DNA of 64,000 nucleotides from Rhodobacteraceae bacterium IMCC1909 (GTDB lineage Bacteria > Pseudomonadota > Alphaproteobacteria > Rhodobacterales > Rhodobacteraceae). A program made the position numbers and the translations under genes. The first letter of the stretch is position 1. Every line of letters starts with the position of its first letter. Positions 5,750 to 44,217 of this stretch are shown here, in pieces. The stretch lies in assembly GCA_030704425.1 (NCBI GenBank), contig JAPDHM010000002.1, positions 496,001 through 560,000 of the forward strand. The letters run 5' to 3'. Under the pieces are notes generated by a model. It was not told the origin of the DNA. It ran no database searches and was given only the letters and a program-made list of their open reading frames with translations.

Positions 5750-5882
5750 GAAGCCACCTCTATTCACGTACCAATATCAAGCTAACCCGTGCCGCTGCTC
5801 TCGCTGAGTGGCTCAATTATTGAGCGCATAGATTTAGGCTGTGCTAGAAATCTGACGCGTGTTCTCATTAGTTTGGCAGTTC
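5750..5882 (+). mobile_element. IS6-family-like 3'-end relic (copy A)
   Basis: One frame reads a decayed IKLTRAAALAEW, matching the C terminus of alphaproteobacterial IS6-family transposases (NFKLNRAAALAEWRQL), followed by about 60 bp of terminal sequence ending near TTTGGCAG. Five other copies in this window share the same order of motifs. It lies between the recombinase arm and the end of quiC. Only the last 130 bp of the element remain. Confidence 0.6.
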
Positions 5883-5886
5883 CTGC

Positions 5887-7773
5887 CTAAATCTTAGGCA
5901 TACCTTTTTGCCGCATCAGGCGCTTTTGCGCAGCGATACGGAATGGAGCATTCGGCCCCCCATACCCCCCATATCCGTCTGTTCTTTGTATAATCTCAAA
6001 GAACATGCCACCTGCGAAAGGCCGCGAGTAGAGTTGGAAAAATTTCCCCTGCGCGTCTTCATCATAGAGGATGTTACTCATGCGGAGTTGTGCCAACCTG
6101 TCTGAGCTGATGTCAAACCGTGCAGCAAGATCTGCGTAGTAGTTGGCCGGAATTGGCAATGACGAGAAACCATTTTTATCCAAACTCTTGGCCGTTGAGA
6201 AAATATCATCCGTCGCGAAGGCAATGTGCTGAACAGAGGCATGGAAACTTTCTGTAAGAAAGCTACCCGCCATGGTCTTATGAGTTTCGGCCCCGTTCAG
6301 TGTAACGCGTAAGCGTCCGTCCGGTGTTTCAAGAGCTTGTGATCGGACCAGACCATCTGGATCGACAACGTCAACCATCGCTGATTTGCCCATATCGAAT
6401 AGGGTCGTGTAGAACAGTGACCAGCTGAGCATATCTTCGTAACTCATGGTCTGCCCGATATGATCTATGCAGGTGAGACCCGTTCCAAGGTTCTTTTCGT
6501 CTATGGAGGTAAACTCAACGTCCCAGACATCTGAAAGGCCACTCTTCTCATCGATGAAATGCAAAATGCTACCGCTTTGTCCGTGGATCGCGGGAATGTT
6601 CAATTGTCCGGGATCAATTGGCTGTTTGAAGGGGTTGGCACCCAGCAATTTGGCGCGCTCGATTGCCGCTTTTGCATCGTCCACATCGATCCCAATATCG
6701 CACACACTGGTTCCGTGCACAGCAAATGCGCTACTAGCATAACCCTTAGTTTCACGGTTCACCAAGATGCGGATATCCCCCTGTGTCCAAAGGGTTAGAT
6801 TCATGCTAAAATGGTTAGCGGAATGGTTGAAGCCGAGACTGCAGAGCAAGACGTCTAGCGCATCTGCTTCCTCTGCCTTACTGGCGAATTCGATGAAGGA
6901 AGTGCCCCGTGCCTTGACCCGGTCTGGCGTGTCCGGCACGTCGAGTGCAAGCGTGGGTTCGACCCGATTGACATCATCCATCAGCGCCACCAGCGACCGA
7001 TAGCCATCCTTGGCGATACTCTTGGGGCGACCGCCTCTAAACTGATCATTAAATATCTCAAGTGAGATCGGCCCAGAGTACCCCGTAGCCATTACAGCGC
7101 GCGTGAATTTAATCATATCTAGGTCGCCTTCCCCCGGCATATTACGAAAGTGACGCGACCAGTACAGTAGGTCCATTTCAATAGCTGGCGCATCGGCAAA
7201 GTGGACGAAAAAGATTTTATCGCCGGGAATGCGGCGGATGGTGTCCGGATCAATCTTGCGAGCCAAAGTATGAAAACTATCTAAGATAAGACCAACATTT
7301 TTATGATCGGCCCTCCGCACTATTTCCCAGGCGTCGCGGTGATCGTTCACATAACGGCCCCAGGCCAACGCTTCATAGCCGACGCGTAGACCCCGCTTTG
7401 CTGCGCGTTCGCCAAGTTCGTAGAAATCAGCAGCGGCTCTGTCGATTCCGCCAAGCGCCTCTGGGTGGCACGAAGAACAAATCAGTATGAGATCAGTACC
7501 TAATTCTTGCATAAGGTCGAACTTCTGTTCCGCACGATCTAAGGCTTTGGTACGCAGTTGTTTGGGCAGGCCTTCAAAATCACGAAACGGTTGAAATAGT
7601 GTAATTTCAAGACCCATTGCGCGGATCATCTCGCCGACTTCGCGGGGATCGCCATCATGGGCGATAAAGTCCTGCTCAAAAATTTCGATTCCGTCGAAAC
7701 CAGCTGTGGCGATGGCTTCGAGCTTTTCTGAAAAGTTGCCAGAGATGGATACGGTGGCAATAGAGGTTTTCAT
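5887..7773 (-). CDS. quiC: 3-dehydroshikimate dehydratase, QuiC-type two-domain protein
   Basis: A 628-residue fusion. Residues 1-270 are a sugar-phosphate isomerase-like TIM barrel (FDGIEIFEQDF, LILDSFHTLA, IFFVHFADAP, GPISLEIFNDQF), the dehydratase part that converts 3-dehydroshikimate to protocatechuate. Residues 290-628 are a 4-hydroxyphenylpyruvate dioxygenase-like VOC domain with the usual metal triad in place: His438 (IDHIG), His516 (VQHIAF) and Glu593 (FFEIIQR). This domain order and length are those of bacterial QuiC1 proteins. It acts in the cytoplasm on the quinate/shikimate route. The dehydrogenase gene at 7931-9016 lies upstream on the same strand. Protocatechuate ring-cleavage genes are not in the window. 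Confidence 0.85.
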   Translation of the reverse strand: MKTSIATVSISGNFSEKLEAIATAGFDGIEIFEQDFIAHDGDPREVGEMIRAMGLEITLFQPFRDFEGLPKQLRTKALDRAEQKFDLMQELGTDLILICSSCHPEALGGIDRAAADFYELGERAAKRGLRVGYEALAWGRYVNDHRDAWEIVRRADHKNVGLILDSFHTLARKIDPDTIRRIPGDKIFFVHFADAPAIEMDLLYWSRHFRNMPGEGDLDMIKFTRAVMATGYSGPISLEIFNDQFRGGRPKSIAKDGYRSLVALMDDVNRVEPTLALDVPDTPDRVKARGTSFIEFASKAEEADALDVLLCSLGFNHSANHFSMNLTLWTQGDIRILVNRETKGYASSAFAVHGTSVCDIGIDVDDAKAAIERAKLLGANPFKQPIDPGQLNIPAIHGQSGSILHFIDEKSGLSDVWDVEFTSIDEKNLGTGLTCIDHIGQTMSYEDMLSWSLFYTTLFDMGKSAMVDVVDPDGLVRSQALETPDGRLRVTLNGAETHKTMAGSFLTESFHASVQHIAFATDDIFSTAKSLDKNGFSSLPIPANYYADLAARFDISSDRLAQLRMSNILYDEDAQGKFFQLYSRPFAGGMFFEIIQRTDGYGGYGGPNAPFRIAAQKRLMRQKGMPKI

Positions 7774-7930
7774 GTCGGATCCTCTTAAATGGTCTGACCT
7801 AGGGCTGCATAATCAAATACGTTTCCTGTGAAGGTGTTCAACGAGTTGAGCCTCAATCTCAAAAATAGAAACTGTCAAATGCACTGTTGTTCGCCTTCAG
7901 GAAAGCATTGCACGATATCCACAACCGCGT

Positions 7931-9016
7931 TCATAATGACGCTGTGGCGTGTTTGGTCGGCTGTGCATCGTAGATGTTTGCGACGCGGACAGATTTGCCT
8001 GAACTTGCCGCGGTGGTAACTGCTTCGACAATTTCAAGGGACTTCAGCCCCTCTAAACCTGACACCAAAGGGGCTGCACGACCACTGATCACATCAGAGA
8101 AATGCCGCACCTGCACGGCCAAAGGATCTTCTATCGAACAGGTTAAAGTCGTGGCGGAAATCGGCGTCCACCAATCGGGCTTTGACGCGTGACGCCACAC
8201 CCGGAGATCGGGAAGTGACAGGCCGCCTTGCGATCCGCCAATCAGATAGCAGCTTTCATTTGTTGCCGGGTAAGCGGGGTTCTCACGCGCTGTTAGTTCC
8301 CAACTCCAGGGCGCGACAATGCTATCGGACACGGAAATCGAAGCTATGGCACCAGACGCGAATGACAAAATGGCAGTGGCGAGATCTTCGTTCTCAAAAC
8401 CTCGAATAGACGGAACTGCAATGGCGCGCACTTCGGTGACCTCACCGCAAAAGTGCCGCAGAAGATCGACATCGTGCACAAGATTTACAGATATCGGCCC
8501 CGCACCTTTTTGGGTGCGCCAGGGTGCAAGGTCAAAATAATGGTCGGGCTTGTAAAACCAGCATGTGGCCTGAACAGATCGCACGGATCCGATCATTCCA
8601 TCGTCAATTGCCTGTTTTGCTGAACGTACCATGCCATTGTAACGGCGATGATGCCCGACCAACAGAGGCACTCCTGCCGCAGCCGCGGCATCGGTCAGCA
8701 ATTTGGCTTCGCCGGCAGTTACAGCGATTGGTTTCTCGATAAGAACCGGGCATTCATTCGCGATGCAAGCCAGCCCCTGATCAACATGGAGAGGCGTAGG
8801 CGTCGCCAGTATAATCCCGTCTGAACCGCCGTTCGACAACAGCTCATCCAATGACGCAAATACGGGAACACCAAGAAGACGGGCCTCTTGTTGTCCACCT
8901 TCGCTTTGCTCGACGACGCCGGACAATTCCACGCCGGGCGTTCTGCACAGAATATTCGCATGGCGCTTCCCAATAAGGCCGAGGCCGACAACTGCAATTC
9001 GCGTGATATCCGACAA
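7931..9016 (-). CDS. Gfo/Idh/MocA-family NAD(P)-dependent dehydrogenase
   Basis: A 361-residue oxidoreductase with an N-terminal Rossmann fold (IAVVGLGLIGKRH), the EKPIAV signature with the conserved Lys, and a C-terminal alpha/beta domain. The start is a TTG at 9016, with AAAGGA 8 bp upstream. Family members oxidise cyclitols, sugars or similar polyols. Next to quiC it could oxidise a cyclic polyol acid such as a quinate or shikimate derivative towards dehydroshikimate (inference; classical quinate dehydrogenases belong to other families). The 157-bp gap to quiC has no terminator I could see, so cotranscription is plausible. Confidence 0.8.
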   Translation of the reverse strand: MSDITRIAVVGLGLIGKRHANILCRTPGVELSGVVEQSEGGQQEARLLGVPVFASLDELLSNGGSDGIILATPTPLHVDQGLACIANECPVLIEKPIAVTAGEAKLLTDAAAAAGVPLLVGHHRRYNGMVRSAKQAIDDGMIGSVRSVQATCWFYKPDHYFDLAPWRTQKGAGPISVNLVHDVDLLRHFCGEVTEVRAIAVPSIRGFENEDLATAILSFASGAIASISVSDSIVAPWSWELTARENPAYPATNESCYLIGGSQGGLSLPDLRVWRHASKPDWWTPISATTLTCSIEDPLAVQVRHFSDVISGRAAPLVSGLEGLKSLEIVEAVTTAASSGKSVRVANIYDAQPTKHATASL

Positions 9017-9127
9017 CGTTGGAATCCTTTCTGGTATCGGATGTACTTAGCCTAATTTTTTTGATAATATCAATATCATCAGACGTTTTTTATTTTAACC
9101 GATGTATTTTTGGTTTGCGGTGCCGCC

Positions 9128-9139
9128 TATACCGGTATA
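9128..9139. promoter_or_regulatory. Palindrome TATACCGGTATA, candidate GntR operator
   Basis: A perfect 12-bp palindrome lies between the divergent Gfo/Idh and GntR genes, 38 bp before the GntR start. FCD-type GntR regulators bind short palindromes, often in such divergent promoters. The link to this regulator is inferred from position only. Confidence 0.45.
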
Positions 9140-9176
9140 AAATGACAAGCGGAAATTAAGGTATCACACAAAGCCC

Positions 9177-9863
9177 ATGGCAAAATCGCGCAACATAGTC
9201 GGCTCCACAACTTATCAAAATATTAAACGTGACATTATATTTGGAAAACTGGCGCCTGCGTCCAAGCTGAAGCTGGAAGCGTTGCGAGAGCGTTATTCGG
9301 CCAGCATGTCCACTTTACGAGAGACTTTGAACCGTTTGGCAAGCGAGGGGTTTGTCGATGCTGAAGAGCAACGCGGGTTTTTCGTTTCGGCTGTGTCGTC
9401 GGAAGATCTTGTGGAAATCGCGAACTTGCGCGTTCTGCTCGAATGCCACGCTCTGCTTTTGTCGATTAAAAACGGGGACGCAGATTGGGAAGGTAATCTG
9501 GTGGCAGCGCATCACAAGCTGCACATCATGGAAAAGAAAATGCTGAATGGTGAATTGACCGCTGCGGAAGATTGGAAGCGCTACGACTGGGAATTCCACA
9601 AAGCACTGATCGCTGCCTGCGGGTCACAAAATCTTTTGTCACTTCATTCGGTGCTTTTTGATAAATATCTGCGATACCAGATGCTTGTACTGACCCATCG
9701 CGGAGAGAAAGCAGTTCATGAGCATAGCGAACTGCTGGATGCTGCCCTAAGGCGGGACGAAACCCGCGCCACAGATATCCTTCGACTGCATATTGAACGC
9801 GGGCTTAACCACTCGGCCGCTGTGTTCCAAAGTGCGGGTGCTGAATCTACCCAACCGGTTTGA
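9177..9863 (+). CDS. GntR-family regulator, FCD subfamily
   Basis: A 228-residue protein with an N-terminal winged helix (about residues 10-75, with the recognition part YSASMSTLRETLNRLASEGFV) and an all-helical FCD ligand domain (about 85-215). In the FCD domain the metal- or ligand-binding pattern is seen in YDWEFHKAL, then HSVLFDKY and HSELLDAAL. FCD regulators are usually repressors released by a pathway acid. It diverges from the Gfo/Idh-quiC pair and precedes the TRAP-sulfatase operon, so it probably controls both and senses the transported acid or an intermediate. The ribosome site is weak. Confidence 0.85.
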   Translation: MAKSRNIVGSTTYQNIKRDIIFGKLAPASKLKLEALRERYSASMSTLRETLNRLASEGFVDAEEQRGFFVSAVSSEDLVEIANLRVLLECHALLLSIKNGDADWEGNLVAAHHKLHIMEKKMLNGELTAAEDWKRYDWEFHKALIAACGSQNLLSLHSVLFDKYLRYQMLVLTHRGEKAVHEHSELLDAALRRDETRATDILRLHIERGLNHSAAVFQSAGAESTQPV

Positions 9864-9987
9864 GCGATGATCCCGACAAGATTTGACCTTCGGCAAATTC
9901 ATCTAGATTCCACAATTACCACCCGCAACCACTTTGCAATCATCGCATTGAATCTTATTGGATTCTGCAGCGCAGATAATAATAGTT

Positions 9988-10005
9988 GGTATTTTTAAAA
10001 ATATC
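9988..10005. promoter_or_regulatory. AT-rich near-palindrome upstream of the TRAP operon
   Basis: GGTATTTTTAAAAATATC is an 18-bp near-perfect palindrome (one mismatched pair) about 110 bp before the TRAP binding-protein gene. It could be an operator or promoter element. It differs from the palindrome at 9128, so a shared regulator is not shown. Confidence 0.3.
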
Positions 10006-10114
10006 TGGTACTTTTAATTCTATCATTTATGGAGAGGTGTATAGGCCAATTTAGCCTTGTTAAAATGGCTGCAACGTCAATTACCGCTCAAGAAAACAAG
10101 GGAGATACCAAATA

Positions 10115-11101
10115 ATGACGCCATCAATCATCAAAAATGTCGCTTCCGGCTTATGTGCCGCTGCCATGCTGGCCACACCCGGCATAGCGCAGGAGAAAGT
10201 TGAACTTATCTGGTCAAGCACGATGTCGGCCACGCACTATCGCGCAACGATGCTCGACACCGTCTTCGGCGCATGTCTGGGCGACGAGTTCGAATTCACG
10301 CCATACCATGGCGCAACATTGTTCAAGCAGGGCACCGAACTGACCGCGATGCAGCGCGGCAACCTCGATATGGCCCCGATTGCCATTCCTGACCTATATA
10401 ATCAGGTTCCGGAATCGAGCATTCTTTCAACTGCCTATTTGTATTCCGACTATGACCACATGCGCAGAGTTTGGGCTTCGGGTGTGCTTGAGGATCTCCT
10501 CGCCACAATTCAGGACAAGGCTGGTATCGTCGTTCTAGACAACAACTATATTGGCACGCGCCAAGTCAATCTGAAAGGCGACAAGGTTATCAAAACACCT
10601 GAAGACATGGCCGGCATCAAGCTCCGCATGCCTGGCGGCGAAGTCTGGCAGTTCATTGGCGAAGCTTTGGGTGCCAATCCGACGCCAGTTGCATTTACAG
10701 AGGTTTACACTGCTCTTCAAACCGGCGCAGTTGACGGTCAGGACAATCCCTATACCGGCACCCAGCGGATGAAATTCTACGAAGTGACGGATCAGATTGT
10801 TTTGACCAACCACCTGGTCGCTAACAACTTGTTTTCTGTCTCCCGTTCCAAGTGGGATTCATTGACTGAGGCGCAACAAACCAAACTGCGTTCCTGTGCT
10901 GTCGAGTATCGCAAGGCGTTCGAGGGACGCATTCTTGAAGATGAGCAGTCCTTGCGCGCTTTCTTCGAAGGCGAAGGTCTAAATGTATACGACCCGGATC
11001 GCGATGCATTCCGCAACCACGTTCTTGGCGTCTACATGGACTCCAAATACGCGTCAGACTGGCCTGAAGGCCTTATCGACGCGATCAACGCGGTCGAGTA
11101 G
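10115..11101 (+). CDS. TRAP transporter solute-binding protein (DctP family)
   Basis: A 328-residue periplasmic protein. The signal peptide is residues 1-25 (ATPGIAQE, cleavage after IAQ). The DctP fold shows in TPEDMAGIKLRMPGG, with an Arg that normally grips the carboxylate of the ligand, and in EVYTALQTGAVDGQDNP, the family signature around the hinge. It binds an organic acid and hands it to the QM permease encoded next. GGGAG precedes the ATG. Context with quiC suggests a cyclic acid ligand such as quinate, shikimate or a sulfated derivative. A strong hairpin follows the gene. Confidence 0.9.
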   Translation: MTPSIIKNVASGLCAAAMLATPGIAQEKVELIWSSTMSATHYRATMLDTVFGACLGDEFEFTPYHGATLFKQGTELTAMQRGNLDMAPIAIPDLYNQVPESSILSTAYLYSDYDHMRRVWASGVLEDLLATIQDKAGIVVLDNNYIGTRQVNLKGDKVIKTPEDMAGIKLRMPGGEVWQFIGEALGANPTPVAFTEVYTALQTGAVDGQDNPYTGTQRMKFYEVTDQIVLTNHLVANNLFSVSRSKWDSLTEAQQTKLRSCAVEYRKAFEGRILEDEQSLRAFFEGEGLNVYDPDRDAFRNHVLGVYMDSKYASDWPEGLIDAINAVE

Positions 11102-11114
11102 TATCGATTAGGAT

Positions 11115-11140
11115 GGGGCGGCTAATACGCCGCCCCTTTT
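11115..11140 (+). terminator. Hairpin with T-run between TRAP P and Q genes
   Basis: GGGGCGGC and GCCGCCCC form an 8-bp stem with a six-base loop (11115-11136), directly followed by TTTT. It looks like a rho-independent or partial terminator that lets the binding protein be made in excess over the membrane subunits. Confidence 0.8.
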
Positions 11141-11165
11141 CAATTCGGTTAGGGGCGAAACCACG

Positions 11166-11681
11166 ATGATAAAGGCGATTGAGAAGGGGCGGCAATTTGC
11201 GGAAGGCATTGCTGCGCTTATGCTTGGTTCAATGTTCGTCTGCTTCCTTACCCAGATTGGGTTCAGATATATTCTGGGTTGGCCGGTAGGCTGGACCATT
11301 GAGTACGTGTCCATGACGTGGCTTTGGGGCATCCTTTTTGGCTACGCCTTCGTTGTTCGCAACCCCGAAATCATTCGGTTGGACATTGTCTATACGGCGA
11401 TGCCGCGAAACATTCAGCGTGCAATGGACGTGATCGCCCAGACTTTTTGTGCCGCGGTTATGCTTTGGTCGCTTCCCCAAGCAATCGATTATATTAACTT
11501 TATGCAGATCGAAAGAACTGCCTATATGCGGGTCAATTTCGCTCTGCTTTTCTCGATATACGTGCCGTTCTCAATCGCGGTCAGCATTCGCTGCCTGATG
11601 TCGGCTTGGGATGCGCTGCGCGGCCACCCTGATGATCCGGCGGTTTTGGGCGAGACGAAAGAATGCGACTGCAATGTTTGA
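11166..11681 (+). CDS. TRAP transporter small membrane subunit (DctQ family)
   Basis: A 171-residue inner-membrane protein with four predicted helices (about 15-37, 48-68, 90-110, 128-150). The segment WPVGWTIEYVSMTWLWGILFG contains the typical W-x-E-x-x-S pattern of DctQ proteins around the second helix. It pairs with the large DctM subunit to form the sodium-driven permease. Its 3' end overlaps the DctM start by 8 bp, indicating coupled translation. Confidence 0.88.
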   Translation: MIKAIEKGRQFAEGIAALMLGSMFVCFLTQIGFRYILGWPVGWTIEYVSMTWLWGILFGYAFVVRNPEIIRLDIVYTAMPRNIQRAMDVIAQTFCAAVMLWSLPQAIDYINFMQIERTAYMRVNFALLFSIYVPFSIAVSIRCLMSAWDALRGHPDDPAVLGETKECDCNV

Positions 11682-12969
11682 GCCATTCACACTGTCAATT
11701 ATCCTGATGGTCGTTCTGACGGTCTTTGGGCTGTCGATCGGCATCGCGATGCTGATTGGAACCATCATGTACCTGGCCCTTGCAGGCTGGGATACCTCAA
11801 TCGCCACGGAAACCGTGCTGCAAGGACTGTTCAACACGTACACCCTTTTAGCCATCCCACTCTTCATCCTTGCTGCCGATATAATGAATGTTGGCTCTTT
11901 ATCGGATCGCCTGCTGCGGTTTGCCGAGGCGCTGGTCGGCCGGTTCCGGGGTGGGCTGGGGCATGTGAACGTGGTGTCCAGCCTTATCTTTTCTGGCATG
12001 TCCGGTTCTGCCGTCGCCGACGCCGTTGGCATGGGCAAAATCGTTATCAACATGATGACCAAGGACGGAAAATATACCAAATCCTACGCTGCCGCTATAA
12101 CTGCAGCGACGGCCACCGTCGGCCCGATCATTCCGCCATCACTACCGATGATTATGTACGCTCTTGTCTCGGACGCCTCGATCGGTTTTCTATTCGCCGC
12201 CGGCATCTTGCCAGGGCTGCTGATGGGCCTGATGATGGCGGGCACCAATGCCTATATTGCACACAAGCGGGATTTCCCGGTGGAAGAACCAACGCCATTG
12301 CGTGACATTCCCCGCCTAACCTGGGAGGCCTTTCCGGCTCTGATGCTGCCAGTTATTCTGCTAGGCGGTATCTATGGCGGTGTCATGACCCCGACCGAGG
12401 CCGCCGCAGTAGCGGCGTTTTACGCTTTGCTGATCTCAGTCTTGTTTTACAGGTCAGTCAGTTTCAAAGCATTCTTTGGTGCACTACGCAGCAGCTCGCG
12501 GTCAACCGCAGCAGTCGGAGTGCTGATTATGGGCGCGATGGCGTTCAACTATGTCATCACGCGCGAGAACATACCCGGCTCTCTCGCCGCGTTCATGGCA
12601 CAATTCGAACTGTCCCCAATCTGGTTCCTGATTGCACTCAACGCCCTGTTCCTGCTGTTGGGTGCCGTCCTTGAACCCGGCCCAATCTTATTGATCGTCG
12701 TGCCGATCTTCATTCCAACGGTTGATGCCATGGATATTGATCTGGTGCATTTCGGGGTGATCGTTGTCATCAACGCAATGATTGGGCTGGTCACGCCGCC
12801 GGTGGGGATGCTGTTATTCATCGTCACAAATGTCACCGGGGCAAAAGTTGGCCACATCATTCGTGATGTCCTACCGTTTCTGTTCATTCTGATCTGCGCG
12901 TTGCTGATCGTCACGATCTGGGAGGACTTCGTACTCTTCGTCCCGCGTCTGCTTGGTTACACCGGATGA
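11674..12969 (+). CDS. TRAP transporter large membrane subunit (DctM family)
   Basis: A 431-residue inner-membrane protein with about twelve hydrophobic segments. Hallmarks are the repeated pattern seen in AIPLFILAADIMNVG, MSGSAVADAVGMGKI, GPIIPPSLPMIMYAL and, in the second half, GGIYGGVMTPTEAAAV and GLVTPPVGMLLFIV. It forms the translocation path of the transporter. The start was set at 11674 (MFEPFTLSI) because the longer frame only adds a charged stretch lying inside the Q gene. The first sulfatase gene overlaps its stop by 4 bp, so transporter and sulfatases are one operon. Confidence 0.9.
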   Translation: MFEPFTLSIILMVVLTVFGLSIGIAMLIGTIMYLALAGWDTSIATETVLQGLFNTYTLLAIPLFILAADIMNVGSLSDRLLRFAEALVGRFRGGLGHVNVVSSLIFSGMSGSAVADAVGMGKIVINMMTKDGKYTKSYAAAITAATATVGPIIPPSLPMIMYALVSDASIGFLFAAGILPGLLMGLMMAGTNAYIAHKRDFPVEEPTPLRDIPRLTWEAFPALMLPVILLGGIYGGVMTPTEAAAVAAFYALLISVLFYRSVSFKAFFGALRSSSRSTAAVGVLIMGAMAFNYVITRENIPGSLAAFMAQFELSPIWFLIALNALFLLLGAVLEPGPILLIVVPIFIPTVDAMDIDLVHFGVIVVINAMIGLVTPPVGMLLFIVTNVTGAKVGHIIRDVLPFLFILICALLIVTIWEDFVLFVPRLLGYTG

Positions 12970-14414
12970 GAGTGAAAGAGCGGCCAAATGTTCTTTTGAT
13001 CTGCGCCGATCACTGGCCCGCTGAATTGCTGGGTGTTGCGGGCCACCCGATCATCAAGACACCTGGCCTGGACGAAATCGCTTTTACCGGGACCCGGTTC
13101 ACGAATTGCTATACTGAATGTCCAGTGTGCATTCCTGCCCGCCGCACTTTGATGACCGGCCAATCGCCGCGCAGCCATGGCGACAGAACGTTTTCTGAAA
13201 AGATGCCGATACCGGATGTCACGACGCTTCCCCAAGCGTTCCGCGATGCCGGGTATCAGGCAGACGCCGTGGGCAAGCTGCACGTTTACCCCCAGCGGGA
13301 TCGCATCGGTTTTGACAGCGTCCTTCTGGACGAAGAAGGCCGGACGCAATTCGGGATGGTTGATGACTATGACATGTTTCTTGGGGATCTTGGCCACACC
13401 GGGCGTCAATACGATCATGGGATGTCGACAAACCAATATGACTGGCGGCCCTGGCACCTTGATGAAGACCTGCATGTAACGAACTGGGCGACGCGCAACA
13501 TGGCGCGGACTATCAAACGGCGCGATCCGACCCGTCCAGCCTTTTGGTACCTTGGGTACCGCCACCCGCACCCCCCGCTCGTGCCTTTGCAGGCCTATGT
13601 GGATTTATACCGCGATATCGGGATCGACCCGCCATATTGCGGTGATTGGGTACACGCGAATGACAACGACCCGCCGTACGCCCTGGCTGCGATGCAAGGT
13701 CGGGTGCGGCTGCACTCTGATCCTGCCATTCTAGAGGCGCGGCGCGCTTTTTACGCGCTATGCACGCAGATCGACCATCAAATCCGCTGGCTGATTGGAA
13801 CGTTGCAACAGGAAGGTATTCTGGACAACACAATCATCGTATTCATGTCCGATCACGGGGACATGCTGGGCAACCACGGCACCGTGGCCAAGCGATTGTT
13901 CTATGAAAGCTCTGCAAATGTCCCGATGATCATTATGGGCACGAAGGAATCTCCGCAGTTATTCGAAAGTGGGACAGACGACCGCCTGATGGGGCTTGCC
14001 GATGTGATGCCCACATTGCTGAACATGTGCGGAATTGACGTCCCCGCGTCAGTCGACGGTACGTCGATGGCTTCCGGTGACACCAAGGACCATATATATG
14101 GCGAATGGGGCGAAGACGACACCGCGTGCCGAATGGTCCGAGATGAGCGGTTCAAACTGATTTACTATGCCGTTGGAAATCACTTTCAGCTCTTCGATTT
14201 GCAGGAAGATCCGCAAGAGCTAGTGAACCTTGGGGGCCAATCGCAGGTGGCCGATGTGCAGGCGCGCCTGACAGAAACCCTTCGCGGCGAACTTTATGGG
14301 TCAGACCTGGAATGGCTCGACGGGCGTGAGTTTATTGGGCGGCCGAACCAGCCTTATACGTGGCAAGCGCACCGACACCTGCATTTTCAAAGAGGCGAGG
14401 GCTGGCCGCGTTGA
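12966..14414 (+). CDS. Cytoplasmic type I sulfatase (482 aa)
   Basis: An alkaline-phosphatase-fold hydrolase with the formylglycine motif C-I-P-A-R at Cys55, the N-terminal metal segment NVLLICADHW, the conserved SDHGDMLGNHG block, and a conserved Lys-containing segment after it (TVAKRLFYE). It should remove sulfate from an organic ester after Cys55 is converted to formylglycine. There is no signal peptide, so it acts in the cytoplasm. The gene overlaps the TRAP M gene by 4 bp, which couples uptake to desulfation. A phosphonate or phosphodiester hydrolase of the same superfamily is an alternative, but the CxPxR motif favours sulfatase. Confidence 0.85.
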   Translation: MRVKERPNVLLICADHWPAELLGVAGHPIIKTPGLDEIAFTGTRFTNCYTECPVCIPARRTLMTGQSPRSHGDRTFSEKMPIPDVTTLPQAFRDAGYQADAVGKLHVYPQRDRIGFDSVLLDEEGRTQFGMVDDYDMFLGDLGHTGRQYDHGMSTNQYDWRPWHLDEDLHVTNWATRNMARTIKRRDPTRPAFWYLGYRHPHPPLVPLQAYVDLYRDIGIDPPYCGDWVHANDNDPPYALAAMQGRVRLHSDPAILEARRAFYALCTQIDHQIRWLIGTLQQEGILDNTIIVFMSDHGDMLGNHGTVAKRLFYESSANVPMIIMGTKESPQLFESGTDDRLMGLADVMPTLLNMCGIDVPASVDGTSMASGDTKDHIYGEWGEDDTACRMVRDERFKLIYYAVGNHFQLFDLQEDPQELVNLGGQSQVADVQARLTETLRGELYGSDLEWLDGREFIGRPNQPYTWQAHRHLHFQRGEGWPR

Positions 14415-14445
14415 AAGGCGTGTCGGCCCTAAAGGAGACATAATA

Positions 14446-15972: not shown

Positions 15973-16033
15973 TCTTGCTAGCTTTCAATCCGCGCATGAT
16001 TTGTGCGCCACTTAAACCCAGAAGACAGCGTCC

Positions 16034-17647: not shown

Positions 17648-17826
17648 CCGAAAACGGTCCCAAAAGTGGTCCTGTGGAAATCTATACTACTGTATTTTTC
17701 TGTTTTGTTCGCAATTTCAGGGAGATCTCGGTGCCCAGAAAAGGACGTCGAACTTTATATATTTTGATTTAATTACAGTTATTTATTTTAAGATTGAAAT
17801 TAAAAAGTGGTCCCGAAAGCGGTCCT
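17648..17826 (+). repeat. Relic of recombinase upstream region with doubled GGTCC motifs
   Basis: From about 17729 the sequence follows the upstream region of the recombinase (compare 5640-5735), including the AT-rich core and the doubled GGTCC motif (AGTGGTCCCGAAAGCGGTCC). A second doubled motif, ACGGTCCCAAAAGTGGTCC, lies at 17650-17668. The two doubled sites, 140-160 bp apart, may mark old recombination sites. Confidence 0.6.
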
Positions 17827-37010: not shown

Positions 37011-37080
37011 GATTTAAATTGAGTACATAGATCAAGGCCGCGCTAGTATTCCGATGCGAGCTTCATTTGTCTGACAGAAT
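37011..37080 (+). mobile_element. IS6-family-like 3'-end relic (copy D, short)
   Basis: Only the terminal part remains: TTGAGTACATAGATCAAGGC, CGCGCTAG, CCGATGCGAGC and CATTTGTCTGACAGAA, in the same order and orientation as in copies A-F. An IS3-family relic follows about 60 bp later. Between the amidase (36838) and here I see no gene. Confidence 0.55.
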
Positions 37081-37658: not shown

Positions 37659-38711
37659 ATGAAAACGAGTAGACTTATCACAACAGTGGATGCACATATT
37701 GGTGGCGAAGTCAGCCGCGTGATCACAGGTGGTGTGATTGATCTGCCCGGCAAAACAATGTCAGAAAAGCTTCACTACATTAACAATGTTGATGACAGCC
37801 TGCGCCGGTTTGTCCTTCATGAACCGCGCGGGGGCGTTGACAAAACTACTAACCTTGTGGTGCCGCCAACACGCGATGACGCTGACGTGGGATTCTTTCC
37901 AATGGAGGCTAATGGTTGCTATCCGATGTCAGGAGCCAATGCAATTTGCGTCGTAACTGCGTTACTAGAAACAGGCGCTTTGCCGATGGTAGAACCTGAA
38001 ACGCTGGTTCGATTGGATACGGCAGCGGGACTGATTGATGTGAAAGTTCGATGTGAGAACGGCAATGCAATTGCATGCACCGTAAGCGCCCCCGCTTCTT
38101 TTCCGGTCCACCTTGACCACCCAATAGAAGTAGAAGGTCTCGGTACCTTGTTCACTGACGTTGGGTGGGGTGGTTGGTATTATGGTTTTGTAGATGCCCG
38201 TAAACTTGGATTTTCGATTCAACCGGACGAAGCGCGAGACATCGCAGCGGTGTTGCGCGAGGTTGGCACTGCTTTACAAGAGCAGGTCAGCATCAGCCAT
38301 CCCTATGATGAGACGATCAACAAAATTAATCTCGGCGCTTTTCCATTTATGACCCTTGATCCAGAGGAAGGATCCAACGTCCATCGTTTTGCTAATATGA
38401 TGCCCGGCGGTCGCATCGATCGTTCCCCTTGTGGGACCGGAGCTGCCGCACGGGCGGCTATTTTGCATTCACGTGGGAAAATGAAGTTGAACGAAGAACA
38501 TATCGCTCTGTCCATTACCGAAGGCGAATTCAAAATGCTCCTACGGGAACAAAAAACTATTCAAGGAACTCAGGTCGTGATGCCAGAAATTACCGGACGC
38601 GCGTTCATCTATGGCACTAGTCAATTATTTTTGAATCCCGAAGATCCATATCAGATGGGAATCAGCCTGTCGGATATGTGGGGTGAAGCGGCACGTGGCG
38701 TTAATTGTTGA
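37659..38711 (+). CDS. Proline racemase-family enzyme, Ser/Cys type (probable hydroxyproline epimerase)
   Basis: A 350-residue protein of the proline racemase superfamily. The two acid/base positions are Ser91 (CYPMSGANAI), where classic racemases and 4-hydroxyproline epimerases have Cys, and Cys258 (DRSPCGTGAAAR). A Cys at the second site argues against trans-3-hydroxyproline dehydratases, which have Thr there. Members epimerise or dehydrate proline and hydroxyproline in the cytoplasm. The hydroxyproline-like cluster at 48.5-56.1 kb and the aldehyde dehydrogenase at 40002 would fit a 4-hydroxyproline route, but the Ser/Cys variant makes the exact reaction uncertain. It stands alone, flanked by mobile relics on both sides. 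Confidence 0.8.
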   Translation: MKTSRLITTVDAHIGGEVSRVITGGVIDLPGKTMSEKLHYINNVDDSLRRFVLHEPRGGVDKTTNLVVPPTRDDADVGFFPMEANGCYPMSGANAICVVTALLETGALPMVEPETLVRLDTAAGLIDVKVRCENGNAIACTVSAPASFPVHLDHPIEVEGLGTLFTDVGWGGWYYGFVDARKLGFSIQPDEARDIAAVLREVGTALQEQVSISHPYDETINKINLGAFPFMTLDPEEGSNVHRFANMMPGGRIDRSPCGTGAAARAAILHSRGKMKLNEEHIALSITEGEFKMLLREQKTIQGTQVVMPEITGRAFIYGTSQLFLNPEDPYQMGISLSDMWGEAARGVNC

Positions 38712-38770
38712 GCGCTTAGATACTGGCGGCACTAGCAATCTAAGGCGAGTTCTCATTCGTCTGACAGCAC
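38700..38770 (+). mobile_element. IS6-family-like 3'-end relic (copy E, short)
   Basis: GTTAATTGTTGAGCGCTTAG, then CACTAGCAATCTAAGGCGAG and TCTCATTCGTCTGACAGCACC follow the shared 3'-end sequence. The relic starts inside the last codons of the racemase gene, so its final residues (RGVNC) may be encoded by IS DNA. The next 200 bp up to 38982 contain only the promoter region of the peptidase operon. Confidence 0.65.
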
Positions 38771-38982
38771 CTAACAAATTCCTAGGCCCACCGCTCCTCT
38801 ACGTCTAGTATACGATAGAAACTGAAACTGGCCTGAAGTAGCGTAATCGCCGCGGTAAGATTAATCTGACCTGATGTGGATAATTTTTGCATTACTCCGA
38901 GCCTATTTGAATGGATTTTAAAATGGCAAATGAAAATCTTGATCGCTTAAGCCCCACAACTGCCCGAACTTGAGGTGGTACA

Positions 38983-40005
38983 ATGAAACCTGGGCCAAGA
39001 AACCTTTTGACCGACGTGGCCGGCCTTTTAGTCGGCAACGCAGAGGTTCAAGATCTGAAATCTGGCGTGACGGTTGTAACGAGTGATGTACCCTTCGTCG
39101 CAAGTGTGCATGTTATGGGCGGCGCACCGGGCACGCGCGAAACGGATCTTTTGGCACCGGATAAAACCGTCGCTGGCATTGATGCCTTGGTGCTGTCGGG
39201 TGGGTCCGCCTTTGGTTTGGCGGCCTGTGATGGGGTTGTAGACGGTTTGCGGCGCGCGAAACGCGGGTTCCCCGTGGGACCAGTGACTGTACCGATTGTT
39301 CCCGGTGCGATTCTCTTTGATATGGTCAATGGTGGGAACAAAGATTGGGCCGACAACCCCTATCTGAAACTCGGACGGGCTGCCTTCGACGCAGCTGGAG
39401 TGGACTTCAATCTTGGGTCCACAGGGGCTGGAACCGGTGCGTTGGACAGCTGTTTTAAGGGTGGTCTGGGATCTGCGTCTGTGACGTTGGACAGCGGACG
39501 GACAGTTGCGGCCTTGATGGCTGTTAATCCTATTGGGTCGGTCACAACACCAGGTGGCAATCATTTCTGGGCCGCGCCACATGAGATGGGCGATGAATTT
39601 GGTGGCGTTGGTCCCGACCCAAGAAGCGATCTGGTCACCCCAGATCCAAGCCAAAAAATGGCGATGATCGCCGCAGCGGGTCAAGACCGAGCCAACACGA
39701 CAATCGGGGTCATTGCCACCGATGCCGCACTCACCAAAGCACAGTGTCACCGACTAGCGGTGGCCGCGCATGACGGAATTGCACGCGCCATACAACCGGC
39801 ACATTCACCCTTTGATGGCGACTTGCTGTTTGCGGTTTCCACCGGCGCTGGTCCGGTCTTGGATGATATGGCGTTGTTTGAACTTGGCCATGCGGCATCT
39901 GTCTGCGTCGCCCGGGCCATCGCGCGCGGGGTTTTTGAAGCAACGCCTCGGCCCGGTGATTTATTGCCCACTTGGAATGATAGAAAGAGGAAAGCCCAAA
40001 GATGA
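38983..40005 (+). CDS. P1-family peptidase (DmpA/beta-aminopeptidase-like)
   Basis: A 340-residue Ntn-type peptidase of the P1 (S58) family. It starts MKPGPRNLLTDVAGLLVGNAE, the usual NxxTDVxGVxVGH-like opening, then GGAPGTRETDLL, LSGGSAFGLAACDGVVDGL and STGAGTGALDSCFKGGLGSAS. Family members remove N-terminal L- or D-residues or beta-amino acids and mature by self-cleavage before a Ser or Thr. A GAGGTGG ribosome site is present. The aldehyde dehydrogenase gene overlaps its stop by 4 bp. Together with the amidase at the end of the operon it suggests processing of a peptide-like or amide substrate. Confidence 0.87.
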   Translation: MKPGPRNLLTDVAGLLVGNAEVQDLKSGVTVVTSDVPFVASVHVMGGAPGTRETDLLAPDKTVAGIDALVLSGGSAFGLAACDGVVDGLRRAKRGFPVGPVTVPIVPGAILFDMVNGGNKDWADNPYLKLGRAAFDAAGVDFNLGSTGAGTGALDSCFKGGLGSASVTLDSGRTVAALMAVNPIGSVTTPGGNHFWAAPHEMGDEFGGVGPDPRSDLVTPDPSQKMAMIAAAGQDRANTTIGVIATDAALTKAQCHRLAVAAHDGIARAIQPAHSPFDGDLLFAVSTGAGPVLDDMALFELGHAASVCVARAIARGVFEATPRPGDLLPTWNDRKRKAQR

Positions 40006-41456
40006 TCGAAATGCCGAATGGGATTGCGCCACATCAGTGCCTCATTGGTGGCCAGTGGCGGCCACCTGCGGGCGGCGAATACCTCGACCTACTCAACCCG
40101 TCTGATGGATCAACACTCTGCGCTATTGCGCGCGGAACGTCTGCGGACGTCGATGCAGCTGTTGATTCGGCAAAGGCTGCATTGAACGGTGATTGGGGGG
40201 CGGCCACGGCGGTGGAGCGCGGACGCATCCTCACTAAAATCAGCCAGCATGTCCTGAAGCATGTCGATCTATTGGCGACACTTGAGGCGCAGGACGTTGG
40301 TAAACCCCTGACACAGGCGCGCAACGATGCCATCGCCTTGGCGCGCTATTTGGAGTTTTACGGTGGAGCAGCCGACAAGGTTCATGGTCAGACCATCCCA
40401 TATATGGAGGGATACACCGTCTATACCCTGCGCGAGCCGCATGGGGTTACGGGCCATATCGTCCCTTGGAACTATCCAATGCAGATCATCGGCCGATCTG
40501 TTGGCGCGGCGTTGGCCATGGGCAACGCCTGCGTTTTGAAACCCGCGGAGGAGGCATGCCTAACAGCACTCGCCTTTGCCGAAATTGCGCGCGACGCTGG
40601 TTTGCCTGATGGTGCACTAAACGTTGTTTCGGGGCTTGGTGCAGAGGCAGGCGCAGCGCTCTCAACGCACAAAGATGTCCATCATATTTCCTTCACGGGC
40701 TCCGTCGGCGTTGGAAAGCTTATCCAGAAAGCGGCCGCAGAAAACATCGTGCCTGTCACGCTCGAACTTGGCGGGAAATCACCGCAGGTCGTTTTTGCAG
40801 ACGCAGATTTGGACGCGGCCCTGCCATTCCTTGTCAACGCAGGTATCCAGAACGCCGGGCAAACGTGCTCGGCATCTTCACGGATACTGGTTCAGGACAG
40901 CCTGTTGGACGAAGTCACAACCAGAATGACCGAGGCCTATGGAGCCCTAATTGCAGCGCCAGCCTTAGAAGACAAACATGTCGGGCCTTTGGTGTCCCAT
41001 CGCCAAAAGGCTATCGTTAATAGCTTCTTCGAGAGGGGTGCCGATCTCACTATCGCGGCACAGGGCGTGATTTCAGACAGCGCGCCTGATACAGGGGCTT
41101 ATGTGGCGCCCACACTTTTCGCAGATGTCGCGCCCGACCATAGCCTCGCGCAGGATGAAATCTTCGGTCCGGTTCAGGTTATCATTCCGTTCAAGGACGA
41201 AAACGAGGCCATCGCAATCGCAAACGGAACCGACTACGGGCTTGTCGCCTCTTGCTGGAGCCGTGATGGCGCGCGTCAGATGCGTATGGCGAAAAAGCTG
41301 CGCGCGGGGCAGGTCTTTGTAAACAACTACGGCGCAGGCGGTGGCGTTGAACTCCCTTTCGGTGGATCTGGCCATTCAGGACATGGGCGCGAAAAAGGGT
41401 TCGAGGCGCTCTTCGGTTTCTCGACGGTCAAAACAGTTGCCACTTATCACGGTTAG
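40002..41456 (+). CDS. NAD(P)-dependent aldehyde dehydrogenase
   Basis: A 484-residue ALDH with all core motifs: PWNYPMQI, the cofactor-binding FTGSVGVGK, general base Glu255 (LELGGKSP), catalytic Cys289 (NAGQTCSASSR), and EIFGPVQVIIPF near the C terminus. It oxidises an aldehyde to the acid. The GQTCSASSR type is seen in betaine-aldehyde and gamma-aminobutyraldehyde-like dehydrogenases, so an amino-aldehyde substrate is plausible; alpha-ketoglutarate semialdehyde, the hydroxyproline intermediate, is another possibility. It overlaps the peptidase gene (ATGA) and precedes the SDR gene by 8 bp. Confidence 0.88.
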   Translation: MIEMPNGIAPHQCLIGGQWRPPAGGEYLDLLNPSDGSTLCAIARGTSADVDAAVDSAKAALNGDWGAATAVERGRILTKISQHVLKHVDLLATLEAQDVGKPLTQARNDAIALARYLEFYGGAADKVHGQTIPYMEGYTVYTLREPHGVTGHIVPWNYPMQIIGRSVGAALAMGNACVLKPAEEACLTALAFAEIARDAGLPDGALNVVSGLGAEAGAALSTHKDVHHISFTGSVGVGKLIQKAAAENIVPVTLELGGKSPQVVFADADLDAALPFLVNAGIQNAGQTCSASSRILVQDSLLDEVTTRMTEAYGALIAAPALEDKHVGPLVSHRQKAIVNSFFERGADLTIAAQGVISDSAPDTGAYVAPTLFADVAPDHSLAQDEIFGPVQVIIPFKDENEAIAIANGTDYGLVASCWSRDGARQMRMAKKLRAGQVFVNNYGAGGGVELPFGGSGHSGHGREKGFEALFGFSTVKTVATYHG

Positions 41457-41464
41457 GACAGAAC

Positions 41465-42205
41465 ATGAGATTACAAGACAAAGTAGCCGTTGTAACCGGA
41501 GGCGCATCTGGGTTCGGAGCCGGGATTGTCCGCAAGTTCGCAGAAGAAGGCGCACGCGTTGTTGTCGCGGATTTGAACGTAAATGGCACACATGAGATCG
41601 CGGCAGAGGTCAAAGGCCTTGGGATACAGGTCGACGTCGCAGATGGCGCTTCGGTGGCTGCGATGGTGGACGCGACGCTCGGTGCCTATGGCCGTTTGGA
41701 CATCTTGATAAACAACGCAGGAATCACGCATTACCCGGCGCCATTGGAAGAAGTGACCGAGCAGAACTTTGATAAAGTTTTTGCCGTGAATTGCAAATCA
41801 GTTTTCCTAACAGCACAGAACATTGTTCCCGTGATGAAAAAGCAGGGCCAGGGCGCAATTTTGAACGTGGCCTCTACGGCTGGGGTCAGCCCGCGCCCGC
41901 GCCTGAATTGGTACAACGCATCTAAAGGCTGGATGAACACGGCAACCAAGGCGATGGCCATCGAATTGGCACCGCAAGGTATCCGAGTCAACGCGATCAA
42001 TCCCGTCGCTGGGGAAACGCCTCTGCTCAAGGTCTTTATGGGTGAAGACACACCGGAAATCCGTGCAAAGTTCCTGTCCACAATTCCAATTGGCCGGTTT
42101 TCCACGCCAAGCGATATGGGGAATGCCGCCTGCTTCTTGTGCTCGGACGAGGCCAGCATGGTCACGGGCGTCTGCATGGAAGTGGACGGTGGCCGGTGTA
42201 TTTAA
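41465..42205 (+). CDS. Short-chain dehydrogenase/reductase
   Basis: A 246-residue classical SDR: cofactor motif TGGASGFGAGI, NNAG at about 83, catalytic Ser137, Tyr150 and Lys154 (YNASK), and the C-terminal DGG. Asp36 at the end of the second strand (VVADLN) predicts NAD rather than NADP. It oxidises an alcohol or reduces a carbonyl. The gene is 8 bp after the aldehyde dehydrogenase, so alcohol to aldehyde to acid steps may follow each other, although the substrate is unknown. Confidence 0.9.
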   Translation: MRLQDKVAVVTGGASGFGAGIVRKFAEEGARVVVADLNVNGTHEIAAEVKGLGIQVDVADGASVAAMVDATLGAYGRLDILINNAGITHYPAPLEEVTEQNFDKVFAVNCKSVFLTAQNIVPVMKKQGQGAILNVASTAGVSPRPRLNWYNASKGWMNTATKAMAIELAPQGIRVNAINPVAGETPLLKVFMGEDTPEIRAKFLSTIPIGRFSTPSDMGNAACFLCSDEASMVTGVCMEVDGGRCI

Positions 42206-42247
42206 TGCGCGCAGCACAAGACCAAAAAACGCAAACAAGGGTACAAT

Positions 42248-43705
42248 ATGACACAGAATGATAAGTCTTCTGATCCTCGTCCGCTTTGGCAATGGAGCGC
42301 GAGAGAGATTGCGACCGCGACACACAGAGGTGCGTTGAGCGCGTCTGAAGTTGTGGAAGCTGCCTTGGATCGCCTGGATGCCGTGAACCCCGATTTGAAT
42401 GCCGTCGTTGAGGTCTGCGTAGACGCCGCCCGTGCCGAAGCGAAAGCGTTGGATGCCAGCGACGCACCCAAGGGGCCGCTGCACGGTGTGCCGGTCACGA
42501 TCAAGATCAATGTCGACCAGAAAGGCCATGTGACAAGCAATGGCGTCGCTGCCTTCAAAGATGTAATCGCGCCAGATGATGCTCCCGTTGTGGCCAACCT
42601 AAGAGCCGCCGGTGCAGTCATCATAGGGCGCACCAACACACCAGAATTTTCATTCCGAGCAGACACCGACAATCCGCTATTCGGGCGCACGCACAACCCG
42701 TGGGGCCACCATGTTTCGGCAGGCGGATCATCAGGGGGCGCTGGCGCCTCTGTGATGGCTGGCATCGGAGCATTGGCGCATGGAAACGACATTGGTGGCT
42801 CTCTTCGGTTTCCGGCATCTGCAAACGGGGCTGTGACAGTCAAACCAGGGCTTGGTCGTGTGCCCGCTTGGAACCCAAGCCAAACCCGCGAAAGGGGCCT
42901 ATTGGCGCAATCCATGTCGGTGCAGGGGGTCATCGCACGAACCGCTGATGACCTGCACCTGTCGATGCCAACGCTGATTGCAGCAGATATCCGTGATCCC
43001 CTTCATGTCCCATTCCCATGGACTGGGACTGCGCCAAAGACGCCTATCAAAGTTGCTGTCAGCAAAGATGACTTTGGCTTTGGCCTGCATCAAGACGTCG
43101 CACTCGCCATCGACCGTGCGGCGTCCGCACTCACCAATGCTGGATACGTGGTCGAAGAAGTAGAACCGCCCATGGTACGTGAAACTGGTGAAATTGGGTA
43201 TAGGTCATTGTTGGGTGAAGTGAAAACCTTGCTTGGACCGGATATCCAAGAACATGGATCAGACATCCTGCAAGCAATATTCGATGACTACCATAAAGTC
43301 TTTCCGCCTTTTGAAGGTACAGAGCTTGTTTCGATGTTGGGGCAACGGTCCCGATACGCACGGGCATGGGCAGAGTTTATGGAAACCTATCCATTGGTTT
43401 TGTCGCCGTTCCTACTGCAACCCTTCTTCGCACCCGCCAGAGATACCGAAGGTGTTGAAGGCGTGACCGAGGTGTTGGGGCAGGCCCATTGGTCGTTTAT
43501 TATGAGTTACCTTGGTCTACCCGCCGGGAACATTCCAACCCATGTTGCTCAATTGCCGTATGGCCCTGTGCCCATAGGTGTTCAAATCGCTGGTCAAAGA
43601 TGGCGAGAGGATTTGATCGTGGACGCGATGCAAGCGATTGAGCGAGAAATTCCGCCAATGTGTACGACACTCTGGACTCAAGTCATGAGTGACCGTTGCA
43701 CGTGA
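42248..43705 (+). CDS. Amidase-signature family hydrolase (485 aa)
   Basis: Catalytic triad Lys86 (PVTIKINVD), cis-Ser161 (SAGGSSGGAGAS) and Ser185 (GNDIGGSLRFPA), again with 24 residues between the Ser. It is related to the amidase at 35444-36838 and distinct in base composition, being more GC-rich. It ends the operon P1 peptidase, aldehyde dehydrogenase, SDR, amidase. The product of amide hydrolysis could feed the dehydrogenases, or the amidase could free an amine (inference). It is followed by 600 bp without a gene. Confidence 0.88.
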   Translation: MTQNDKSSDPRPLWQWSAREIATATHRGALSASEVVEAALDRLDAVNPDLNAVVEVCVDAARAEAKALDASDAPKGPLHGVPVTIKINVDQKGHVTSNGVAAFKDVIAPDDAPVVANLRAAGAVIIGRTNTPEFSFRADTDNPLFGRTHNPWGHHVSAGGSSGGAGASVMAGIGALAHGNDIGGSLRFPASANGAVTVKPGLGRVPAWNPSQTRERGLLAQSMSVQGVIARTADDLHLSMPTLIAADIRDPLHVPFPWTGTAPKTPIKVAVSKDDFGFGLHQDVALAIDRAASALTNAGYVVEEVEPPMVRETGEIGYRSLLGEVKTLLGPDIQEHGSDILQAIFDDYHKVFPPFEGTELVSMLGQRSRYARAWAEFMETYPLVLSPFLLQPFFAPARDTEGVEGVTEVLGQAHWSFIMSYLGLPAGNIPTHVAQLPYGPVPIGVQIAGQRWREDLIVDAMQAIEREIPPMCTTLWTQVMSDRCT

Positions 43706-43883
43706 TTTTTCTCAGTATAAAAAGGTGGATAATTAATTTACGATACACGCATGGACACATAAAAACAGTATGTTAGTGCCTCCCCCGGGCACCACAACTT
43801 CAACGAAAATAGAAGTTTAACCTAAGTGGTCACACCAAGTTATACTTGGAGTATTTTGTCTGAATATAACCTTTTTGTCAAAG

Positions 43884-43905
43884 AGTGTGTGACCAGTGTG
43901 TGACC
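43884..43905 (+). repeat. Tandem 11-bp repeat AGTGTGTGACC (two copies)
   Basis: Two exact copies of AGTGTGTGACC follow each other, i.e. one DNA helical turn apart. The doubled 11-bp layout is the same as that of the GCGGTCC motifs in front of the recombinase, so it may be an arm-type binding site of another integrase. No integrase gene is next to it now. Confidence 0.5.
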
Positions 43906-43934
43906 GTGAATGTGCGGACGATCGCGTAAAGCGT

Positions 43935-44045
43935 GGGGTTACTGTGCCTGATCGCTACAGTTGAGCCGCAGGACCACGGACCGGGCCCCCCTATCATAGG
44001 GCCCCGCGTCTCGGACCACGGGCCTTTAGTGTTAGCCCTATAAAT
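43935..44045 (+). repeat. Dispersed GGACCACGG-type repeat (copy 1)
   Basis: Contains GTGGGGTTACTGTG, then GGACCACGG twice (43971 and 44013) around a GC-rich inverted segment (GGGCCC at both sides of a short loop), and ends TTAGTGTTAGCCC. The same order of motifs recurs at 58945-59040 and partly at 58365-58475. It lies in the 600-bp gap between the amidase and Lrp genes; I found no gene there. Confidence 0.5.
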
Positions 44046-44075
44046 TCATTCGGGGGTAATTTTGTTGGGGGGGAG

Positions 44076-44217
44076 CTCGCCATCTCTACTCACACACCAA
44101 TTTTAAGCTGAACCGTGCCGCTGCTCTCGCCGAGTGGCGCCAACTATTGAGCGCATAGATTCAGGCTGCGCTAGCAATCTGCAATCTGATGTGAGTTCTC
44201 ATTCGTCTGACAGCACC
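44076..44217 (+). mobile_element. IS6-family-like 3'-end relic (copy F, best preserved)
   Basis: One frame reads LYSHTNFKLNRAAALAEWRQ then LLSA and a stop, the cleanest version of the transposase C terminus among the six copies, followed by the terminal stretch ending GTCTGACAGCACC. The rest of the element is missing. Copies E and F bracket the peptidase-dehydrogenase-amidase operon. Confidence 0.7.

Follow-up and report, generated by a model that had tools for sequence, protein, structure and literature searches.

The translocatable units and pseudo-compound transposons formed by the insertion sequence (IS) IS26 and other IS6-family elements, as set out in parts of PMC7986276 and PMC7885326, are the closest described counterparts of the locus reported here. 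This locus is a 64-kb stretch of DNA (the window, C2:496001-560000) from a 3.27-Mb alphaproteobacterial genome, labelled G000 in the comparisons, in which eight pieces of an IS6-family element lie among catabolic gene modules. The two systems share the IS6 transposase family, an element of about 800 bp and directly oriented copies on either side of cargo. According to sections of PMC7885326, the conservative reaction between two IS26 copies involves like ends, makes no duplication and leaves the copies co-oriented; like ends and the absence of target duplication are also what we infer here. In contrast to the IS26 units, the cargo here consists of catabolic genes on the chromosome of a marine alphaproteobacterium; a duplication footprint is missing, and many of the ends have diverged or belong to elements that lack a transposase gene. 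Our analysis suggests that an IS6 element has helped to shuffle metabolic genes in the ocean, as its relative IS26 does with resistance genes.

IS6-family elements around catabolic genes and IS6-family miniature inverted-repeat transposable elements (MITEs) are already known. In sphingomonads, IS6-family copies (IS6100) sandwich catabolic clusters and recruitment has been proposed, a likeness drawn from parts of PMC2848856; that system concerns the carbazole genes of one strain, whereas here dozens of copies, remnants and mini-elements are found and exchange is measured between species. A further likeness is given by IS copies at large rearrangements without duplications, where sections of PMC11708052 read the absence as recombination or adjacent deletion, although that work deals with other IS families and with laboratory evolution. 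Among the top-ranked titles of broad literature searches none concerned IS6 in Planktomarina or IS6-bounded roseobacter modules, and the main text of the RCA-cluster genome paper (PMC10675870) gave no match to any of the terms "transpos", "insertion" and "genomic island". Most of what is known of IS26-type exchange comes from resistance regions and laboratory tests. Like ends, missing duplications and a change of partner near the tip, as found here in a marine chromosome with catabolic genes, offer a concrete and testable route by which such bacteria may gain and lose substrate-use modules, and add natural sequence data on whether diverged IS ends can react.

Compared with the 80 named loci listed, the transposase of the element is 96-100% identical to four Planktomarina loci and at best 92% to any other, and the organism is therefore taken to belong to or stand near Planktomarina. 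The IS6 catalogue covers 739 kb of G000 (window included) and 460 kb of the complete relative G011. These stretches were picked mostly around IS6 matches, so that the block-border figures given below describe islands and not the whole genome. In rpoB, G011 is 98.6% and a second relative, G005, 93.0% identical to the window genome.

The element is 817 bp long, which fits the IS6 norm of about 800 bp, and ends in short terminal inverted repeats (GGTACTGTCAGA / TCTGACAGCACC). Full-length copies with intact transposase genes are present in the window's own genome. Its DDE domain (PF13610) is met at 19 places of the genome, at 18 of them above the cut-off, and five of the 19 matches lie in open frames of 238 amino acids without stops. 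The one copy scored against the NCBIfam IS6 family NF033587 (L013) reaches 184.9 bits at a cut-off of 125. By eye, the consensus transposase carries an E-SH---R motif, which parts of PMC6807381 list for 10 transposases, nine of them from the most diverged clade. A profile built from full-length copies gave 198 matches in the two sets of stretches, with 124 3' ends (72 in G000, 52 in G011) and 88 5' ends (54 and 34, respectively). Near-identical copies exist, three 3' ends being 99% identical to the consensus.

A first-pass annotation of the window had described six plus-strand segments (A to F, Table 1) as 3'-end relics of an IS6-like element of unseen full length, together with two 5'-end pieces of the same orientation. 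The profile recovers all eight at about the places given, and the decoded segment end FKLNRAAALAEWRQL is contained in the consensus transposase C-terminus FKLNRTAALTEWRQLLSA. The length of 70-140 bp assigned to the segments holds in general, though D measures only 59 bp. What did not stand is the view of the six as a special set of equal, plain relics, for they are six among 72 3' ends in the 739 kb and are of several kinds: remnants of a high-copy IS6-family element on the one hand and of its short derivatives without a transposase gene on the other. F and the 58275 piece come from transposase-less elements, A and B from an integrase-linked repeated unit. The weak 58275 match is backed by homology, the sequence following it (to 58916) recurring behind IS6 5' ends in the genus, and it forms the left end of an element related to the short IS6-derived ones. 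A repeated composite unit (about 5639-5879) has A as its right part. The unit upstream of A and of B is also found in the start region of a tyrosine-integrase gene, part of the integrase upstream region being repeated before B (17730-17826, 85%). The upstream unit of A recurs together with an IS6 3' end in at least five genomes (G005, G006, G008, G016 and G018). The two copies of the 344-bp inverted repeat left of A (461-804 / 5392-5735, 97%) enclose about 4.6 kb.

Table 1. Positions of IS6-derived pieces and neighbouring features in the window (E-values of profile matches refer to the 1.2 Mb searched).
Feature	Position	Strand	Remarks
Tyrosine integrase (DUF6538 + Phage_integrase), adjoining A	4414-5577	-	
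Integrase gene start and upstream region, just left of A	5392-5735		97% inverted copy at 461-804
Segment A, IS6 3' end	5747-5879	+	model 680-813; profile, E 2e-27
A-B module: QuiC-like, Gfo/Idh-like dehydrogenase, GntR-type regulator, TRAP transporter, three sulfatase-like genes	5887-17560		
Segment B, IS6 3' end	17855-17972	+	model 700-817; profile, E 5e-25
Segment C, IS6 3' end	19054-19179	+	model 692-817; exact joint; profile, E 1e-22
Start of module right of C	19213-20290		95.6% identical over 1078 bp in G005:C49, up to the contig end
Block left of the 23567 tip	22941-23566		96% identical to G011:2598246-2598872; homology stops at the IS6 tip
5' IS6 piece	23569-23764	+	model 3-198, tip extrapolated 2 bases to 23567; profile, E 4e-55
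Segment D, short decayed IS6 3' end	37019-37077	+	model 754-813; 59 bp; profile, E 2e-6
Trans-3-hydroxyproline dehydratase/proline racemase-like gene	37659-38711	+	below the families' cut-offs
Segment E, IS6 3' end	38695-38771	+	model 741-817; exact joint; profile, E 3e-13
183-bp unit directly after the IS6 tip of E	38772-38954		
E-F module: 340-amino-acid protein without NCBIfam match, aldehyde dehydrogenase, short-chain dehydrogenase/reductase (SDR), amidase	38940-43707	+	
Right half of M2, holding segment F	43936-44217	+	
Segment F, IS6 3' end	44078-44217	+	model 685-817; profile, E 1e-30
Stretch syntenic with G011:707468-725431	44309-56853	+	in pieces, with longer gaps in G011
5' IS6 piece	58275-58367	+	model 6-98; profile, E 2e-4

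Of the 92 truncated 3' ends, 45 start at model positions 675-684, where an even spread would put about five, and many of those starting near position 680 belong to short elements without a transposase gene. The form M1 consists of about IS 1-127 joined to 679-817 around a fixed interior and measures 339-344 bp in six end pairs, with one longer form of 442 bp. M2 joins about IS 1-105 to 681-817, has an interior unlike that of M1 and measures 527-532 bp in three end pairs. Other 5'-3' end pairs are 182-186 bp and 424-427 bp long. With both IS ends, no transposase gene and a repeated fixed structure, M1 and M2 have the build of MITEs, and as in the full element no duplications were found around their end pairs. 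Two IS6-family MITEs of 227 and 336 bp are listed in ISfinder according to parts of PMC7986276, and sections of PMC6807381 name MITEBth2 and MITEHarch3. The elements found here resemble known IS6 MITEs in structure and length (182-532 bp), the two ISfinder elements being likened by description only, and differ from those portrayed in these sources in that several internal forms (M1, M2 and others) occur in one genus. Among 295 family genomes the M2 interior was met in five: complete in the two that represent this genus in the sample, and weakly in the other three. In the G000 and G011 islands the left borders of M1 and M2 right halves are fixed (CCGCCACGCG.. and GGGTTACTG..). Several left flanks recur beside these right halves, some of them with short tandem repeats that resemble integrase arm sites (by eye), and an integrase-like frame lies near one mini-element (by eye). 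The recurrent left border of the 3' ends and the integrase beside A raised the idea of site-specific integration at IS position 680, which was rejected: in the catalogue, the expected left partners ending just past 680 did not show up as a class. One M1 and one M2 interior were folded as candidates for structured RNA and fold no better than shuffled sequences (z 0.5 and 1.0).

Block borders between the two genomes coincide with IS6-derived DNA above chance. An unmasked comparison of the G000 and G011 stretches gave 28 blocks (at least 90% identical, at least 400 bp outside IS), and 14 of 54 block ends in G000 and 20 of 54 in G011 lie in or within 20 bp of IS6-derived DNA, the two counts not being independent of each other. 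Circular shifts gave means of 2.63 and 2.98, respectively, with a maximum of nine each, and none of 1000 shifts reached the observed values. Two blocks are bracketed on both sides, in both genomes, by co-oriented IS6-derived ends, a 10.1-kb block (98%; C2:65315-75425 / G011:1226185-1216075) and a 2.5-kb block (99.6%; C1:689199-691667 / G011:1320523-1322991). Cargo between directly oriented IS6 copies, as pictured by the first-pass annotation for the window modules, is thus shown in these two blocks elsewhere in the genome but for no window module, the ends of the E-F module lying off IS6 DNA.

Polarity is conserved at these borders. At fourteen block ends, both genomes show an IS6 edge no more than 70 bp away. 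In nine of them a terminal repeat faces the block end, and it is the same tip in all nine, the right inverted repeat (IRR) in five and the left (IRL) in four; in six of the nine the tip is kept despite differing strand and place. The other five ends face cut internal IS ends; the model position agrees between the genomes in four, and in one it is 173 versus 712, a case that the script also put in the same class. The counterpart of the block end at C2:107239 (G011:809534) has no IS6 nearby.

Partners have changed while modules stayed alike. The set used here (n=9) comprises eight of the nine terminal-repeat ends and the comparison of window segment C with G005; C2:90570 was left out because its copy starts at model position 9, outside the cut used. 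The blocks at these ends are 93-99.6% alike, and in eight of nine the module's first 40 bp show 92-100% identity (60% beside C, owing to an indel). Abutting IS ends are mutual best matches at only one of the nine shared module ends. In the eight others they are 67-92% alike, and the partner ranks 5th to 102nd among 67-116 others. By comparison, at a junction with both flanks conserved the IS ends are 97% alike and rank first. At two joints in G011, the module and the IS are separated by leftovers of another IS tip, 13 and about 30 bp long.

Three joints in the window are exact, namely C, E and the 5' end at 23567. Right of the IS of C the junction is identical in G005 (by eye), where the left neighbour is different; the IS ends themselves are 80% alike and rank 8th and 35th of 108. 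Between its copies of the E-F module and of the module following C, G005 carries a decayed near-full IS6 copy (model 1-817, 546 bits). The 183-bp unit right of E is 100.000% identical (183/183) in G002:C3, directly behind another IS6 copy. Since the match to G002 including the IS piece of E is 94% over 260 bp, subtraction of the identical 183 bp leaves that piece about 80% alike. A second copy of the E joint lies at C1:73646 in G000 itself (91.8% over 182 bp; IS ends 81%, rank 41 of 118). In G011, the nearest IS6 match to the homologue of the block left of 23567 is weak and lies at the block's opposite end. Synteny with G011 begins 92 bp right of F, which puts F near a joint. Identity of the quiC gene right of A to its counterparts in G001, G002, G005 and G011 is only 75-77%, and for A, B and D the matches listed include no relative with informative flanks. 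Like-end exchange at A, B, D and F would be an extrapolation from the exact joints. G005 and G011 carry the E-F module in different surroundings, at 97% identity, and in both relatives an ABC-transporter-ATPase-like frame (by eye) runs straight into it, so the window copy has apparently lost its left partner away from E. As a separate observation, the last codons and the stop of the racemase-like gene are supplied by segment E.

We consider IS6-mediated exchange between like ends probably the best-fitting explanation of the shuffling of blocks. Gene blocks would make up most of the genus's accessory regions, with IS6 ends at many of the joints, and would swap neighbours between species when like IS6 ends recombine, left ends with left ends and right ends with right ends. 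Such recombination lets a block keep its polarity to the element, makes no target duplication and allows the adjacent copy to be replaced at or near the terminal inverted repeat. By analogy with IS26, the IS6 transposase may drive the exchange through a targeted conservative or an adjacent-deletion reaction; adjacent deletion aimed at old IS ends would be an alternative fit, and homologous recombination inside elements presumably contributes.

Several points weigh against this explanation. In the laboratory, the IS26-type targeted conservative reaction needed identical DNA at the reacting end (parts of PMC7885326), whereas present-day identity among the copies compared here is mostly 67-92%. 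The polarity and the lack of duplication would equally result from homologous recombination between copies. Most block ends lie away from IS6 DNA (40 of 54 in G000, 34 of 54 in G011), and between the homology of the E-F module and the flanking segments lie about 170 bp on the E side and about 370 bp on the F side. An earlier masked border test, with 16 and 21 of 76 ends within 20 bp versus 0.3 expected, was discarded as inflated: with random masks of the same sizes, hits numbered 4-12 of 100-106 and 3-11 of 99-106, and because masking alone thus yields about 3-11%, the unmasked circular-shift test took its place. At one of the nine partner-change ends the IS end moved with its flank. The same holds for C1:715269/G011:1325563 (95%, rank 1), and at C1:691845/C2:52375 (99%, rank 1) a stretch of 1274 bp at 99.9% starts inside the element. 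IS ends that move with their flank mean that crossovers inside elements also occur.

A wider form of like-end exchange is conceivable, though less likely than not. A common IS6 transposase would act in trans, chromosome-wide, on dozens of ends, diverged and transposase-less ones included, with M1 and M2 as portable docking ends, and whole catabolic blocks would change places between like ends, inside a species as well as across species, with polarity fixed and no target duplication made.

Rather unlikely, in our view, is that RecA-dependent homologous recombination between dispersed co-oriented IS6 copies did the shuffling, the transposase having only supplied the copies. Like-end polarity and missing duplications need no further assumption on this account, near-identical copies are at hand (the three 3' ends at 99% to the consensus), and in some cases an IS end travelled with its flank or a crossover lies inside the element. 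In contrast, partners changed between diverged ends (67-83% in five of nine) next to well-kept module starts, and a crossover within the element should bring the module-side part of the element along.

The first-pass annotation had suggested that the window may record serial capture, in which each module arrived with its own IS as a copy-in translocatable unit and the window is a stack of insertions. IS6 relatives do so with resistance genes (parts of PMC7986276), and two window stretches are 95-97% identical at other places in G005 and G011, beside IS6 copies in G005. The footprint of copy-in insertion is missing. Around single elements none of 59 5'-3' end pairs (some overlapping) has more than five of eight matching flank bases, full-length copies included (0 of 22 above 5/8). 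Outside any copy pair, 73 x 111 flank pairs contain none at 8/8 and three at 7/8, versus 4.8 expected by chance, and the window was therefore not filed as copy-in units. In other genomes, mostly of Rhodobacterales, loci yielded 65 delimited copies (some delimitations doubtful), the best of which reaches 5/8; the missing duplications are therefore not special to the genus. The flank check covers extant copies and is no test of what insertion itself makes, later events can also remove duplications, and IS26 is, by the account in sections of PMC7885326, not known to give single duplication-flanked insertions directly. No relative with an empty site was seen, though no systematic search was made.

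The shared orientation of all eight window ends, which serial capture would explain, had been put forward as a special sign. It is, however, general rather than specific to the window. Neighbouring copies less than 50 kb apart agree in strand in 100 of 117 cases in the examined regions of the two genomes (40/44 in G011; 60/73 in G000, by parts 29/38, 29/32 and 2/3), so that a shared orientation in the window is to be expected and carries little information of its own. Although 47 of 55 merged IS6 copies in G011 are oriented along replication-fork movement as judged from sampled GC skew, a fork bias is not established as the cause, as only seven of 12 G011 strand runs follow the fork; copies in G000 also show exceptions. 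We judge serial capture improbable as an account of the whole window. The first-pass interpretation is partly supported overall: the full element exists in the same genome, block borders coincide with IS6-derived DNA with conserved polarity, and no relative was seen to carry the modules in order without relics.

It is very improbable that IS6 was passive, its copies favouring intergenic DNA of islands shuffled by tyrosine integrases or phages and the borders coinciding with them by location: an integrase does stand beside A, another integrase-like frame (by eye) near one mini-element, and borders away from IS6 are common, but only 1.4% of positions outside frames of at least 150 amino acids lie within 20 bp of an IS6 edge, against the 14 and 20 of 54 block ends at IS6 DNA (by a slightly wider criterion), and insertion alone would not keep the facing tip in nine of nine.

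Rfam (gathering threshold) and tRNA scans of the 64-kb window were both empty. The left flank of the window maps reversed to G011:467177-457857, the right flank forward to the syntenic stretch given in Table 1 (G011:707468-725431). GC skew is -0.04 to -0.08 on the left and right (C2:436001-600000) and positive at C2:516-576 kb. Together, the opposite flank orientations in G011 and the switch in GC skew point to an island in an inverted or translocated segment. The stretch with an epimerase-like (NAD-dependent) gene at window positions 3300-4400 is 98% identical to C2:145352-146452 of the same genome.

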